From: Lactobacillus sp. 0.1XD8-4
Lineage (GTDB): Bacteria > Bacillota > Bacilli > Lactobacillales > Lactobacillaceae
NCBI RefSeq assembly: GCF_009663775.1
Contig: NZ_RDBR01000001.1
Span: 1-64,000 of the forward strand
Direction of reading: 5' to 3'
Length of the DNA: 64,000 nt
In this document: in pieces, positions 18,606 through 24,775 of the stretch
Layout: every line of letters starts with the position of its first letter
Position numbering within the stretch: position 1 is the stretch's first letter
The notes under the pieces: generated by a model
What the model was told of the DNA's origin: nothing
Database searches by the model: none
What the model saw: the letters and a program-made list of their open reading frames with translations, nothing else
Made by a program: the position numbers and the translations under genes

Positions 18606-19514
18606 GTGAAAGGACTGATCTTTATTTCGAAGAAAAAAGCTAACGTAATGCTCCTCATCGTTGCCATTTTATGGGGCAGCAGCTATGTCTTTGCTAAGTT
18701 AACGATTCAAGCTGGGATGCATTCTGGTGTTATCAATGCCTGTCGCGGAACAATGTGTGTTATTGCTGGATATCTTATTTTCCATAAGCAAATTAACCGC
18801 ATGACATTGACCGACTTCAAACTTGGCTTAATTATGGGAACCATTAATTTTCTCGGCTATTTTTTACAAACTGACGCCCTTCGCTACACAACTCCTGCTA
18901 AAAATGCTTTTTTAACAACCCTTTATGTTGCAATTGCGCCACTATTGCTTTGGTTATTTTGGCATGAACGTCCCCAAAGAAAAACCTACTTTGCGGTAAC
19001 TCTCGCCCTAATCGGAATGGCTGTCATTACTAATGTTGTTAACACTGGTCTTCAGCTTAATTTTGGTGATTTTTTGACCGTTATTTCTGCTATATTCTGG
19101 GCTTTACAACTGATTTTCTTTGGTAAATACGCACCAAAAGTATCAAGCCCCTGGGTTGTTATTTTCATGATTGGTTTATGCCAAGGCACTTATGGCTGGA
19201 TTACAACAGCTTTGTTTGAGCGGGCTAATTTGGCCCAAATTCACTGGATTCAAGCTTTAATCCCGCTTGCTATTTTAGCAATTGTTGTTACATTCCTGGC
19301 ACAGGGAATGCAAATTACCGCCCAGCGTTATACAGATGCGACTTCTGCTGGCCTTTTACTAATGCTCGAATCATTCTTCGCAAGTACGATGTCCGTTATT
19401 ATGGGATACGATCCGTTAACTCCGCAACTAGTATGGGGCGGCATGATTCTCCTGCTTGCCAATGCCATTATGCAAATTAATTTCCAAGATGTTCCATTTT
19501 TAAAGCAACAATAA
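18606..19514 (+). CDS. EamA/DMT-superfamily permease
   Basis: About 296-302 residues with ten predicted membrane helices in two EamA repeats (LWGSSYVFAK at the start; the second repeat begins near FGDFLTVISAIFWAL). Members export or import metabolites such as amino acids; substrate cannot be told. The start is unclear: the GTG at 18,606 lacks a ribosome site and overlaps AAAGGA, which is ideally spaced (nine bases) for the ATT at 18,624, giving a typical N-terminus MSKKKANVMLL. Preceded by a cre-like site and followed by a terminator; stands alone. Confidence 0.85.
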   Translation: MKGLIFISKKKANVMLLIVAILWGSSYVFAKLTIQAGMHSGVINACRGTMCVIAGYLIFHKQINRMTLTDFKLGLIMGTINFLGYFLQTDALRYTTPAKNAFLTTLYVAIAPLLLWLFWHERPQRKTYFAVTLALIGMAVITNVVNTGLQLNFGDFLTVISAIFWALQLIFFGKYAPKVSSPWVVIFMIGLCQGTYGWITTALFERANLAQIHWIQALIPLAILAIVVTFLAQGMQITAQRYTDATSAGLLLMLESFFASTMSVIMGYDPLTPQLVWGGMILLLANAIMQINFQDVPFLKQQ

Positions 19515-19568: not shown

Positions 19569-20921
19569 TTATTTTTTCTTATCTTCTTTAGCAACGGCCG
19601 CTTGTGCTAGTAAGTTAACATAGTTAAATAGCCGGTCAAAGTTTGGCTGGAATAATGTATCGACATAGGCAAGAAAATCAATTGAGTTGCGGTTTTGAAT
19701 ACATACAGATACTAGGTTAGCTGATTGTGAAACATCATGCTTACTCATAAACTGTGCACCAAGAATCCGCCGCGTTCCTTTTTCCCATACTAGTGTCATG
19801 AAGACAGGCGTAGTGGTTGGCATAAACTCTGGACGATAATTATCTTCAATTGTAACTGAATCGGCATCGATACCGAACTCTTTTGCCCGGCGTAATGTCA
19901 GCCCAGTACATACCATTGTGTTACCGAATAGGTGCAAGCCAGTCGTTGACTGTGTCCCCATATATTTCATCTGGTTGCCAAAAACGTTAACACCCGCAAT
20001 TGTTCCTTGACGAACAGCATTAGTTGCTAACGGAACATAACGGTCAGTGTTAGTCGGATTAAAGTGAACAGATGTAACATCCCCACCAGCATAAATATCT
20101 GGATCAGAAGTCTGCATATATTCATTAGTCTTGATTGTGCCATCTGGGTGTAATTCAATCTTGCCACGAACAAGATCACTATTTGGCCGGAAACCGACAC
20201 AAAGAACCGCCATGTCAGCATCATAAATCTTACCGTTATTTGTCGTAACACTTACGCCGCCAGTCCCATTATCCTTGAAACCGGTGACCCGTTGACGTAA
20301 TTCAAGGTGAGCATTATGGTCTTTGAAAACCCGGCCAATCCGATCAGAGTATTGCTTATCAAAGTATTTCAACAACATTTGATCAGAACTATCAATCAGC
20401 GTAACTTCTCGTCCCTGGCGAAGGTATGCTTCTACTAATTCGACACCAATGTAACCCCCACCAACAACGATAATCTTCTTCGCTTCTTTTGCAAGGTGGA
20501 AGAGCTTCTTGGCATGGTAATAGGTCTTACATAAGTATAGGTTCTTATTTTCAAGCCCTGATACAGGCGGAATCACTGGCCATGAACCAGTAGTAATAAT
20601 TAACTTATCATAGTAGTCAGCAGTTAATTTACCAGATTCTTGGTCCTCAATTTCAAGGGTCTTGGTAGCTGGATCAACACTCAATACATTGTGCTTTACT
20701 TTAACTGTGGCCCCCATGTCTTCCAGTTGCTTAGGACTAGAATAAAACATTGCGTCCGGGTCCCCAACTTCACCACTCAAATAAACGGCAATTCCACATG
20801 AAAGGAATGAAACCGTATCATTTCGTTCGTAAATAACAACTTCAGCATCTGGATGCGCATTTAAAATCTGGGTTGCTGCTATCGTGCCCGCGTGCGTACA
20901 GCCAACAATAACTACTTTCAT
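19569..20921 (-). CDS. nox: NADH oxidase (water-forming type)
   Basis: 450 residues. A flavoprotein of the NADH oxidase/peroxidase group that regenerates NAD+ by reducing oxygen in the cytosol. The FAD-binding GCTHAGTIAA stands at the N-terminus, the redox-active cysteine in SFLSCGIA (about residue 43), the NADH-binding VVGGGYIGVE, the second FAD motif YAGGDV, and the C-terminal dimerisation domain with IEDNYRPEFMPTTTPV. GAGGTG precedes the ATG. The neighbouring upstream gene on the same strand is a degenerate copy. In heterofermenters this enzyme spares ethanol formation. Confidence 0.93.
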   Translation of the reverse strand: MKVVIVGCTHAGTIAATQILNAHPDAEVVIYERNDTVSFLSCGIAVYLSGEVGDPDAMFYSSPKQLEDMGATVKVKHNVLSVDPATKTLEIEDQESGKLTADYYDKLIITTGSWPVIPPVSGLENKNLYLCKTYYHAKKLFHLAKEAKKIIVVGGGYIGVELVEAYLRQGREVTLIDSSDQMLLKYFDKQYSDRIGRVFKDHNAHLELRQRVTGFKDNGTGGVSVTTNNGKIYDADMAVLCVGFRPNSDLVRGKIELHPDGTIKTNEYMQTSDPDIYAGGDVTSVHFNPTNTDRYVPLATNAVRQGTIAGVNVFGNQMKYMGTQSTTGLHLFGNTMVCTGLTLRRAKEFGIDADSVTIEDNYRPEFMPTTTPVFMTLVWEKGTRRILGAQFMSKHDVSQSANLVSVCIQNRNSIDFLAYVDTLFQPNFDRLFNYVNLLAQAAVAKEDKKK

Positions 20922-21033: not shown

Positions 21034-22377
21034 TTAGTCGTTACCCGCTTTTGCCATCGCGGCTTGACCAAGCAAATTAACATAATTAAAAGCACGGTCA
21101 AAGTTTGGTTGGAACATCGTATCATACATTCCTAAAAACTCAATCGTATTTTTATTTTGAATACACAATGAGATTAAACTCAATGATTCAGAAATATCAT
21201 GTTTGCTCATCATTTGGGCGCCTAGTATCTGTCGGGTATCTTTATCCCAAACAACTGTCATTAGGACCGGTGTAGTCGTTGGCATAAACTCTGGTCGATA
21301 ATTATCTTCAATCGTAACTGAATCAGCATCAATTCCTGCTTGTTGTGCCCGTGCTAATGTAAGACCAACTGATGCCATTGTGGTTCCACTAAGGTTTAAA
21401 CTCATGCTTAGTTGGGTTCCAGAATCTTTTACTTGTTTTCCCATCACATTTTCTGCAGCAATTACTGCTTGGCGAACTGCTTCTGTTGGTTGAGGATCAT
21501 AGATACGTTGCCCTGTCGGATTGTATCGAAGAGTGGTGGAACCACCGACAACATATATATCAGGTACGGAGGCTTGCAGAAATTCATCTACCTTGATTGC
21601 CCCGTGATCATCCATTTCTAATACTCCATGGTAAATAGATGTATCGGGTTCTTGTCCGGATGAAATTACTGCTCGGCTAGCATTATAAGTTCCCTTGTCT
21701 GTTGTCACCGTGATTCCAATTCCGTTATCATCAATCCCTGCTACATGTTCATTGGTAACAACATTGATATTATCAGCCGTTAAGAGGTCTTTAGCACGTT
21801 TAGAATATTCATCTTCAAAGTAGTATTGTAATACCGGTGCGCCATTTGTTATTAGAGTAACTGTTTTTTTCTGTTGACGAAATGCATCAACCAAGCCAAG
21901 GCTCAAAGCATCATTACCAATAACGACAATCTGTTGGTCAATTGTTGATAAAAGAACAGCTGCCTTGGCATCCTGCTGGTCTTTAATAAGGGTAACGTTG
22001 GTACTATCGACTCCTTTAAGGCTAGGGGCAGTTCCGGTAGGGTCATTAGCAATAATCAACTTATCATAATGCTCAGCGGTCGTATCATCATCAAGCATCC
22101 CCATTACCTTAACGGTCTTTTGTGCTGGATCGACATGCATTAACAGGTATCCCATTTTAACGTCCGCACCCATCACTGTTAGTTGTTGTGGACTTAACTC
22201 TGTCCGCAATCGTGGGAATTCTGCATCTTGGTCATCGTAATCATTAATCTCATATGAAATTGAGGGAACCACTGCATTACGGTCATAAATGGTGACCTCC
22301 GTGTCTGGATGACTCTTTAAAATTTGTGCCGCGGCTGTCATCCCCGCATAGGTGCAACCGATTATAATTACCCTCAT
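21034..22377 (-). CDS. Degenerate NADH oxidase paralogue
   Basis: 447 residues, collinear with the downstream nox over its whole length and nearly identical in the C-terminal IEDNYRPEFMPTTTPV and TMFQPNFDRAFNYVNLL. The active features are altered: the redox cysteine motif SFLSCGIA has become SISYEIND, the NADH glycine motif GGGYIG has become GNDALS, and the FAD motif GGDV is GGST. The first GCTYAGMTAA is kept. The frame is intact with a proper GGAG ribosome site, so it is an expressed-looking but probably non-oxidase protein: either a regulatory/scaffold partner of Nox or a drifting duplicate. No oxidase activity is predicted. Confidence 0.82.
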   Translation of the reverse strand: MRVIIIGCTYAGMTAAAQILKSHPDTEVTIYDRNAVVPSISYEINDYDDQDAEFPRLRTELSPQQLTVMGADVKMGYLLMHVDPAQKTVKVMGMLDDDTTAEHYDKLIIANDPTGTAPSLKGVDSTNVTLIKDQQDAKAAVLLSTIDQQIVVIGNDALSLGLVDAFRQQKKTVTLITNGAPVLQYYFEDEYSKRAKDLLTADNINVVTNEHVAGIDDNGIGITVTTDKGTYNASRAVISSGQEPDTSIYHGVLEMDDHGAIKVDEFLQASVPDIYVVGGSTTLRYNPTGQRIYDPQPTEAVRQAVIAAENVMGKQVKDSGTQLSMSLNLSGTTMASVGLTLARAQQAGIDADSVTIEDNYRPEFMPTTTPVLMTVVWDKDTRQILGAQMMSKHDISESLSLISLCIQNKNTIEFLGMYDTMFQPNFDRAFNYVNLLGQAAMAKAGND

Positions 22378-22468
22378 AGTACTACTCCTCGTCGAAATTA
22401 TTTCGTTACTTTTTATCCGTATTTAAATTATAAATCTAATATTGTAAAGTGCAATATTCGTATTATCT

Positions 22469-24775
22469 TTATTTATTATTCATAACCTTTTCGTATTCGT
22501 CAACCGGTACTTGATCAATTAAACTCGTTACCTTGTCAATAGATACCAAGCTAAGCGCATGCATAGCTCGTGAACAAATAGTATAGAGTAGCTGACGCTC
22601 ATCGTTTCCGTGATATTGCTGTTCATTAGCATTCCAGACAATTACCGCATCGAATTCTAATCCCTTCGCGAGATAAGAAGGAACAATAAGCGGGCCTTTG
22701 ACTAACCGTTGATTTTCTGTCCGAATCAACGTGGTCTTAATATTACGGGCCATTAACTTTTGGTAAAGCTCTTCACTGTCTGCTAAGGTTTTACCAATAA
22801 TCGCTACGGCATCATGCTCTTTCTTATATTTAGCCAGTGTATCAACTACTGCTGTCACCGCGTCGTCTGCTGTTTTAGTCTCCCAAACTTGCGGTTTTGT
22901 CCCCTGACGTTCAAAAGCCTCAATTGCTTCCCCATCAATTAAGATATGTTTTGTAAAGTCGGTAATTTGTTTTGTCGAACGATAGGACTTAGTAAGTTGA
23001 ACTACTTTAGTCTTTTCTGGATCAAACATTGTCCCTAACTGTTGTAAAAGTGATTTACTATTTTCATGAGTAAAAATGGCTTGATTAAGGTCACCGAGCA
23101 AGGTAAATTTAGCACGCGGGAAACGATACTTAAGATAAGCTAATTGGTATGCATCATAATCTTGGACTTCATCAACAAAAACATACCGGATATCCCGTTG
23201 GCCACGTTTCCCTGTAATTAAATCATACAAGTAAAGGTAAATAGTAATTCCGCTAGCACTAATTTTCCCTTTTTTCAAATTTTCTTTTATGCTATCAACA
23301 TAATTCCGCCACTGCTCTTCATTAATGTCATAATCGTCAATTTTAACAAGCTTGGGCGTTACCCGAAGAAAGTGCAGAAATTGACCATTAATGTTAAGCC
23401 ATTGATTATGGTCAATCGCTTTTTTGATTGGGGCAAATGCCCGCATAACAATTTGTCGTGCTAAAAATTTGTACTCCTTATCTTCGTCTTCAAATTCACG
23501 CGGCTGATTGCCAAAAAGGTTATCAATTTCTTCCTTACTCAAGCTCTGGATTTCATCTTCAACCCATTTATTCCGCATTTCACTGCTAACACGGTGGTTA
23601 AGGTACTTGATTAGTTCTTCTTTTGTGCCATCTAACCTATTTCCCAGGTTATAATTATTGTTAAATGAATAATAAATTTCTTTAATCTTATCCTTGCTTA
23701 AAAAGACTTTGCCATTAAACATCAAATTACGAAAGCGCATATTAGCACGTCCTAGGTGTTTTGCATAACGCTCCGTTGCCTTAAAGTATTGTAAGCTGGT
23801 TAATAAACGTTGGGCATTTTTAGCTGTTGTATCTTGGTAATTTTCAAATCGTTGTTCAAGATTTTGAACATGTAACCTAGGAACACGGCGATTAGCAAAT
23901 TGGAAGTAAGTCATTTGCACCATGTTATGTTCACCAAGTTCTGGTAAAACCTGGTCAATATAATCATTAAATAATTGATTAGGCGAAAATAGCACAACTT
24001 GCGAGGAAGTTAAATTGCCCCGATAACGATAGAGTAACCACGCAACACGCTGCAAAACGGCTGCTGTTTTTCCTGAACCTGCAGCACCTTGGACGAATAA
24101 TAATTCATCATTCGTATCACGAATAATCTCATTTTGCTTTCGTTGAATCGTCGTTACAATACTCTTCATTTTTGTACTTGAATGATTGCCTAGTGCTTCT
24201 AAAAGCATTTGGTCGCCAACTTGTTCATCTGTATCAAAGATTGTAACTATTACCCCGTCTTTAATCTGAAATTGACGCTTTAGGGTCAGGTCAACCTCCT
24301 GTTCGCCTACTGGGGTTTGGTATTTAACTTTTCCTAGCTTCCCCTCATAGTAAACTGATGAAATAGGGGCCCGCCAATCATACACAAGAAAATGATCAGG
24401 CTTATCAGTAAATGATGCTAATCCAATATAAACACTTTCATTTTCCGCGGATCCCTTTTCACGAAAATCGATCCGCGCAAAGTAAGGTTTCTTTTCAAGG
24501 CGCTGCAAAGTTGCTAATCGATCTGCCGCATGCTGCCAACTATTTTGCCGTTCATCCAGCATTTGTTGTTGAGCACGAAATGACATGGCAGTATCCATCA
24601 TGCCAGAATAAGTAGTGGTGTTTAAATGAATATCATCAATCTGTTTATTTATTCCTTTAATATCATGCCGCGCTGATTTAATTTTTTCTTCAGCTTTTTG
24701 TTCAGCTTCTCTTACTTTATCAATAACGTTATCAAGATATTTTTGCTCTAATTCCTTTTCCGTGTTTGCGGCCAT
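22469..24775 (-). CDS. helD: HelD-type superfamily I helicase (RNA polymerase recycling)
   Basis: 768 residues. The N-terminus is a charged antiparallel coiled coil (about residues 1-80), typical of HelD, which inserts into RNA polymerase. The helicase core has Walker A GAAGSGKTAAV (about 230), Walker B VFVDEVQDY, motif III LLGDLNQ, motif IV LTKSYRS, motif V AKGLEFDAVIVWNA and motif VI YTICSRAMHAL. HelD uses ATP to free stalled polymerase from nucleic acids. It could also be called a UvrD-like helicase; the coiled-coil start argues for HelD. Single-gene unit. Confidence 0.87.
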   Translation of the reverse strand: MAANTEKELEQKYLDNVIDKVREAEQKAEEKIKSARHDIKGINKQIDDIHLNTTTYSGMMDTAMSFRAQQQMLDERQNSWQHAADRLATLQRLEKKPYFARIDFREKGSAENESVYIGLASFTDKPDHFLVYDWRAPISSVYYEGKLGKVKYQTPVGEQEVDLTLKRQFQIKDGVIVTIFDTDEQVGDQMLLEALGNHSSTKMKSIVTTIQRKQNEIIRDTNDELLFVQGAAGSGKTAAVLQRVAWLLYRYRGNLTSSQVVLFSPNQLFNDYIDQVLPELGEHNMVQMTYFQFANRRVPRLHVQNLEQRFENYQDTTAKNAQRLLTSLQYFKATERYAKHLGRANMRFRNLMFNGKVFLSKDKIKEIYYSFNNNYNLGNRLDGTKEELIKYLNHRVSSEMRNKWVEDEIQSLSKEEIDNLFGNQPREFEDEDKEYKFLARQIVMRAFAPIKKAIDHNQWLNINGQFLHFLRVTPKLVKIDDYDINEEQWRNYVDSIKENLKKGKISASGITIYLYLYDLITGKRGQRDIRYVFVDEVQDYDAYQLAYLKYRFPRAKFTLLGDLNQAIFTHENSKSLLQQLGTMFDPEKTKVVQLTKSYRSTKQITDFTKHILIDGEAIEAFERQGTKPQVWETKTADDAVTAVVDTLAKYKKEHDAVAIIGKTLADSEELYQKLMARNIKTTLIRTENQRLVKGPLIVPSYLAKGLEFDAVIVWNANEQQYHGNDERQLLYTICSRAMHALSLVSIDKVTSLIDQVPVDEYEKVMNNK

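Follow-up and report, generated by a model that had tools for sequence, protein, structure and literature searches.

A NADH oxidase paralog without its catalytic residues is conserved beside an intact copy in Lactobacillus sp. 0.1XD8-4 and its relatives, and may be a non-enzymatic partner of it

In lactic acid bacteria, NADH oxidases take part in the handling of oxygen and in the NAD balance, and they also serve for NAD regeneration; pseudoenzymes in general are well known. In CoADR, residues such as Tyr361 and Tyr419 may be donated across the dimer, a piece of background that is not used as evidence here. The closest described relatives of the gene analyzed below are the water-forming NADH oxidases (Nox), such as LbNOX of L. 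brevis (5ER0/5VN0) and the enzyme of L. sanfranciscensis (2CDU), where Cys42 is described as the peroxidatic cysteine (PMC4584968). Next to them stands the branch of NADH peroxidase and CoA-disulfide reductase within the pyridine nucleotide-disulfide oxidoreductases, the single-cysteine parent family, whose homodimers are described as showing subunit asymmetry and whose catalysis is joined by residues of the opposite subunit (PMC6026696). Dead subunits with effects on live ones are described in other families. Prozymes are dead paralogs that form a complex with an enzyme and thereby activate it, as reported for the trypanosome AdoMetDC (PMC5201418) and for deoxyhypusine synthase (PMC3663545), and in ALDH2 an inactive variant is reported to inhibit the wild type within mixed tetramers (PMC10211241). 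A literature search, whose coverage leaves out most subscription journals, found no description of a pseudo-NADH-oxidase.

The window is a stretch of 64,000 nucleotides from Lactobacillus sp. 0.1XD8-4 (contig NZ_RDBR01000001.1, positions 1 to 64,000). It contains a gene, here called S, placed between a helicase-like gene and an NADH oxidase gene, here called N; the names helicase-like and EamA-like given to the flanking genes are a reading of their sequence.

18606..19514, plus strand: EamA-like transporter gene, the flank on the other side, in the same place in relatives
19569..20921, minus strand: N, NADH oxidase adjoining S, 450 residues, every catalytic motif present and activity assumed from these motifs
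21034..22377, minus strand: S, pseudo-NADH-oxidase open reading frame, 447 residues and a stop codon, with matches to Pfam Pyr_redox_2 (120 bits) and Pyr_redox_dim (50.5 bits)
22469..24775, minus strand: UvrD/HelD-like helicase gene, the upstream flank of S, in the same place in relatives

S starts with ATG, has zero internal stops and is collinear with N at 47.4% identity over 445 columns, which bears out the sequence-only reading of this frame as a full-length collinear copy of nox that has stayed open. S and N match the same two main Pfam domains, and the matches of S (four families) are to the parent families only. Under NCBIfam NF046103, which has a cut-off of 600 bits, S scores 273.6 bits, and N also falls below, with 424.6 bits. 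A second Nox of the same genome, N2, lies intact on another contig (locus L003, G000:C79:27834-29165) and is 48% identical to S. As a guess, N2 is possibly the ortholog of the noxE of L. reuteri, which is described as peroxide-induced (PMC6722424).

The AF2 model of S, built without Met1, has a pLDDT of 86.6, and its best match among solved structures is LbNOX (Z of 43.4 over 435 residues, rmsd 2.8). Both Pfam and the comparison of the model with solved structures thus place the family fold and the domains of water-forming NADH oxidase in S, which shares with LbNOX and 2CDU the whole-length fold, the domain order, the interface domain and the first FAD glycine motif. An FQPxFD stretch in its interface domain is common to NADH peroxidase. 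The segment 38-59, around the old active site, has a pLDDT of only 32-36 in S; because the same segment of N, taken as a control, also drops, though less (56-58), the notion of disorder there as a trait specific to S is weakened. A loop near 421-429 is of low confidence in the S and N models alike, and the model of S says little about the active site or the interface.

Intact S was found in 7 of the 50 genomes of a search of the genus, the window genome counted; of 467 loci in the contig scan for relatives, the 80 best were retained. The six further intact orthologs, which carry the same or equivalent losses, as the sequence-only reading had thought worth checking, belong to other Limosilactobacillus species and occupy the same position there; they come from L. 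rudii (87% identity), L. caviae, L. balticus, L. agrestis, L. caccae (70%) and a strain labelled L. reuteri WF-AA1-C. In all seven genomes an intact N lies alongside and the helicase-like gene lies upstream. As a reference we took 83 Nox-type rows (8 N and 75 others), assumed active from their motifs, and called a position Nox-invariant when its residue is at least 95% invariant in these rows. There are 160 such positions aligned in S: 79 are kept in all seven copies, 33 are mixed and 48 are lost in all seven, these last including His10, Cys42, Gly43, Gly112, Gly156, Gly159 and Asp279. The motifs concerned lie as follows.

22342..22359, minus strand: codons 7-12 of S, first FAD-binding glycine motif retained as GCTYAG, with G7, C8, T9, A11 and G12 in 7/7 S
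22348..22350, minus strand: codon 10 of S, Tyr (Phe in 4/7 copies) for the His10 of Nox
22252..22254, minus strand: codon 42 of S, Tyr for the redox Cys42 of Nox (Tyr in 7/7 S, Cys in 83/83 Nox-type rows)
22042..22044, minus strand: codon 112 of S, Asp for the Gly of Nox (Asp in 7/7 S, Gly in 83/83 Nox-type rows)
21901..21918, minus strand: codons 154-159 of S, GNDALS for the NADH-binding GGGYIG, Gly154 being kept and Gly156 and Gly159 lost in 7/7 S
21541..21543, minus strand: codon 279 of S, Gly for the FAD-binding Asp of the GD motif (Gly in 7/7 S, Asp in 83/83 Nox-type rows)

The changes claimed from the sequence are all present: SISYEIND, in which Cys42 has become Tyr; GNDALS; and the loss of the Asp of GGDV, a motif that reads GGST in S (Gly279). 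The intact first FAD glycine motif was not among the features that the sequence-only reading listed. In comparison with the water-forming Nox, S lacks Cys42, His10, two glycines of the NADH motif and the Asp of the GD motif, and has Asp for Gly112; in comparison with the NADH peroxidase and CoA-disulfide reductase branch, it lacks the single redox cysteine. All seven copies share these losses, with His10 replaced by Tyr or Phe. Across copies the NADH motif reads GN.[AP]L[SA] in S and G[GA]GYIG in Nox, and among the 93 long open reading frames of the fetched loci, which include a few repeats, only the seven S are without Cys42. We take the first glycine motif, Gly112 (of the ATG motif) and Asp279 to be FAD contacts; the first is kept in 7/7 S and the other two are lost in 7/7, so that two of the three are gone. 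Without the peroxidatic cysteine, with the NADH glycine motif ruined and with two of three FAD contacts gone, S should be incapable of the Nox reaction. A redox sensor had also been proposed, and since residue 42 is Tyr in 7/7 S, thiol-based sensing from the former active site is improbable.

The replacements are themselves conserved. Among the 48 lost positions, 28 are fixed to one other residue in S, versus 29 of 78 Nox-variable positions (p = 0.027). There are 41 residues fixed in the seven S that none of the 83 Nox-type rows has, and the old active site has polar newcomers (Asp/Glu43, Asn45, Asp112, Asn155). Codons 38-61 of S (22195-22266, minus strand) are acid-rich, almost fixed among the S copies, unlike Nox, and poor in the model; this stretch is a candidate for a new contact surface.

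Selection was analyzed with a one-omega codon model on seven species, with one genome per species and the species tree taken from the S/N phylogeny. Omega is 0.076 for S and 0.027 for N, and omega = 1 is rejected for S (2dlnL of 1260). Synonymous change is large, and absolute dS is therefore uncertain for S; the three closer pairs of S agree with the overall value, with omega of 0.070, 0.105 and 0.127. The sequence-only reading had called for dN/dS by domain, and here, across species, the segments of S give 0.111 (1-105), 0.051 (106-240), 0.105 (241-318) and 0.043 (319-447). Its refuting condition, a lack of orthologs together with dN/dS close to one throughout, therefore fails at the level of species. 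It had also argued that a neutral pseudogene would collect stops: by a crude estimate, neutral evolution to the divergence measured against the nearest ortholog would have introduced about 53 stop-creating changes, and 0 are present. S is kept by purifying selection after the loss of its catalytic residues. For the seven intact copies, the codon model and the absence of stops refute the reading of S as a pseudogene whose frame owes its openness to chance or to gene conversion from N, a reading which we consider extremely improbable.

At the 48 lost positions omega is 0.072, versus 0.076 for the rest, and fixing it at 1 there costs 2dlnL of 397, the lost class being defined by the states of S themselves (Nox residue absent in all seven). 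Hence, the replacements are held in place. Such strong constraint at replaced positions, together with the new polar residues at the old active site, would also suit an enzyme that has acquired a different catalytic activity. However, with the cysteine, the two NADH-motif glycines and the two FAD contacts missing, no cofactor chemistry is recognized, and Pfam shows the parent families alone, so that we consider a new enzyme a fairly improbable outcome.

The losses are not evenly spread along the protein.

21037..21423, minus strand: interface (dimerization) domain of S, codons 319-447, in which 38 of 48 Nox-invariant positions are kept, 6 are mixed and 4 are lost

Outside this domain there are 112 Nox-invariant positions, of which 41 are kept, 27 mixed and 44 lost. 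The ratio of kept to lost is thus 38:4 in the interface domain versus 41:44 elsewhere (Fisher p = 1.9e-6, mixed positions omitted), in agreement with the earlier claim that the catalytic residues were lost selectively and the interface kept. The further claim of a nearly identical C-terminus holds for residues 354-373, where 19/20 are identical to N, but not for the whole of 319-447, where identity is only 68% (88/129); in the other three segments it is 46/105, 44/135 and 33/78.

Part of this similarity has another source. At codons 352-372, the sharing of codons between S and N of the same species is raised (reached in 0.0006 of 5040 relabellings; 0.0042 for 340-395), which signals a short local gene conversion with N. 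Because of it, S-N identity at these codons is not due to selection alone. A pseudogene repaired from N might leave such a trace, yet no excess of shared codons within species is seen in residues 1-318 (0.38 of relabellings) or in 319-447 taken as a whole (0.15), and gene conversion as the only cause of the similar C-terminus is unsupported across the whole domain on the same 5040 relabellings.

The conservation of the interface would fit a homodimer of S equally well. S could be a kept pseudoenzyme that pairs with itself, for example binding a nucleotide or a flavin fragment through its first Rossmann motif and signaling elsewhere, with no contact with N. The first FAD glycine motif, kept in 7/7 copies, favors this, as do the residues fixed in S and absent from Nox, 35/41 of which lie outside the interface domain and suggest new surfaces or ligand contacts, and the nearly fixed stretch 38-61. 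We regard the homodimer as a serious rival, if on the unlikely side, given the company that S keeps in genomes.

The S copies group on a very long stem, and their branching is the same as that of N (seven species; one fork of N is weak, 90/56), which indicates that the two genes were passed on together by descent. The trees do not single out one particular Nox from which S would descend: S joins the N clade weakly (78/12), the AU test does not reject a grouping with the N2 clade (p-AU of 0.42), and it lies within the group of all three clades with a support of 99/94. Outside the genus, no S-like score was found in 301 sampled genomes of the family, the best score there being 477 bits and the best non-S score overall 516 bits, versus 930-939 bits for the three intact S sampled.

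The site itself is informative. In 14/17 outgroup loci with the helicase-like gene, the neighbor is EamA-like or LTA-synthase-like and there is no match to S or N; of the 17 fetched loci, two reach the end of the contig and one is without any of these neighbors, and some of the EamA-like matches are only 52-62% identical. This clade probably acquired, or retained, the two genes together. Since both are present at a site where 14 of the 17 outgroup loci show neither, the site counts for a pairing of S with N, and their joint absence from the outgroup loci seen speaks against a homodimer indifferent to N.

The clade can be delimited as the 13 genomes in which the helicase-like gene is at least 84% identical (our cut; the next is 82%), and these are also the 13 genomes in which S is present, whole or in part. 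S is intact in 7/8 of those with intact N and in 0/5 of those in which N is lost or truncated (Fisher 0.0047, kinship ignored); the five genomes without N amount to about three events, S and N being linked. That intact S occurs only alongside intact N is again at odds with the homodimer. Four of the five genomes without N retain an intact second Nox-type gene elsewhere (unplaced in the tree), and the state of S therefore tracks N and not the second Nox. This pattern is suggestive and fits a loss of use of S once N goes; linkage or a shared loss of need could also produce it.

The six broken copies differ in kind. In G024, a metagenome-assembled genome (MAG), a one-base deletion breaks S beside an intact N. 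Three indels disrupt S in G037, where N is reduced to its first 303 residues. In G038, S has deletions of 13 and 4 bases and runs out into the tail of N, which is otherwise gone, and in G034, G022 and G035 about the last 80 codons of S are left, ending in the tail of N, again with N gone. Two of the approximately three losses of N thus look like recombination between the two copies, by which N was deleted and S became fused to the N tail. Breakage in 6/13 genomes is also what a pseudogene would show, but the three broken copies that were measured still have an omega of about 0.09 versus an intact relative, which indicates that they were lost recently, after long constraint.

Some further observations concern these remnants. 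At least two different S/N breakpoints are found in loci L124, L125, L126, L127 and L128 (G038, G034, G035, G022 and G024). G024 has two versions of the locus (L059 and L128), one with nox intact and the other an S/N remnant, and this MAG probably mixes strains. In G034 (L125, 4150-5960), DNA next to the S remnant, on its far side, resembles a transposon-like element of the IS200/IS605 type, as read from its sequence.

Upstream of S there are signals compatible with its expression.

22381..22390, minus strand: ribosome-binding site GAGGAGTAGT of S, invariant in 7 species
22427..22432, minus strand: TATAAT, a probable -10, within a 12-base block upstream of S that is invariant in 7/7 upstream regions
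22449-22454, minus strand: weak TTGCAC, 16 bases upstream of TATAAT

A general promoter scan gave 9 matches, versus 10.2 expected from shuffles, and did not list the TATAAT site of S; a terminator search found none. S is probably expressed.

From these elements we infer that the S protein is made, is inactive, dimerizes with N and affects it. S would then be a conserved pseudo-NADH-oxidase that dimerizes, most likely with N, and works without enzymatic activity, a reading to which we give even weight for and against. It would keep the fold and the interface domain and act through protein-protein contact, pairing with N to make up a heterodimer and altering the stability, the output or the oxygen response of N. 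A dead subunit could tune a live one since residues of the opposite subunit act in catalysis in this family, as described in PMC6026696.

The more specific proposal, which we put forward only tentatively, is prozyme-like: S and N would pair with each other obligately or by preference, one site of the dimer being live and the other permanently silent, and S would decay after the loss of N. An alternating-site homodimer would thereby become a one-site enzyme with altered handling of oxygen or peroxide. Like the prozymes as described, S would be a dead paralog of an active multimeric enzyme lying beside a live copy; unlike S, a bacterial oxidoreductase known from sequence, the prozymes described are eukaryotic, belong to other enzyme families and have demonstrated complexes. 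The likeness to ALDH2 as reported lies in a dead subunit that affects live oxidoreductase subunits, and the difference is that the dead ALDH2 subunit is a variant of the same gene and not a separate conserved gene. The purpose of half-of-sites behavior is described as still unknown in many enzymes (PMC6026696). If the partnership of S with N is true, the dead subunit preserved in nature would offer a probe of the communication between subunits in the NADH oxidase family, and a gut bacterial oxidoreductase would join the dead paralogs that may regulate live ones.
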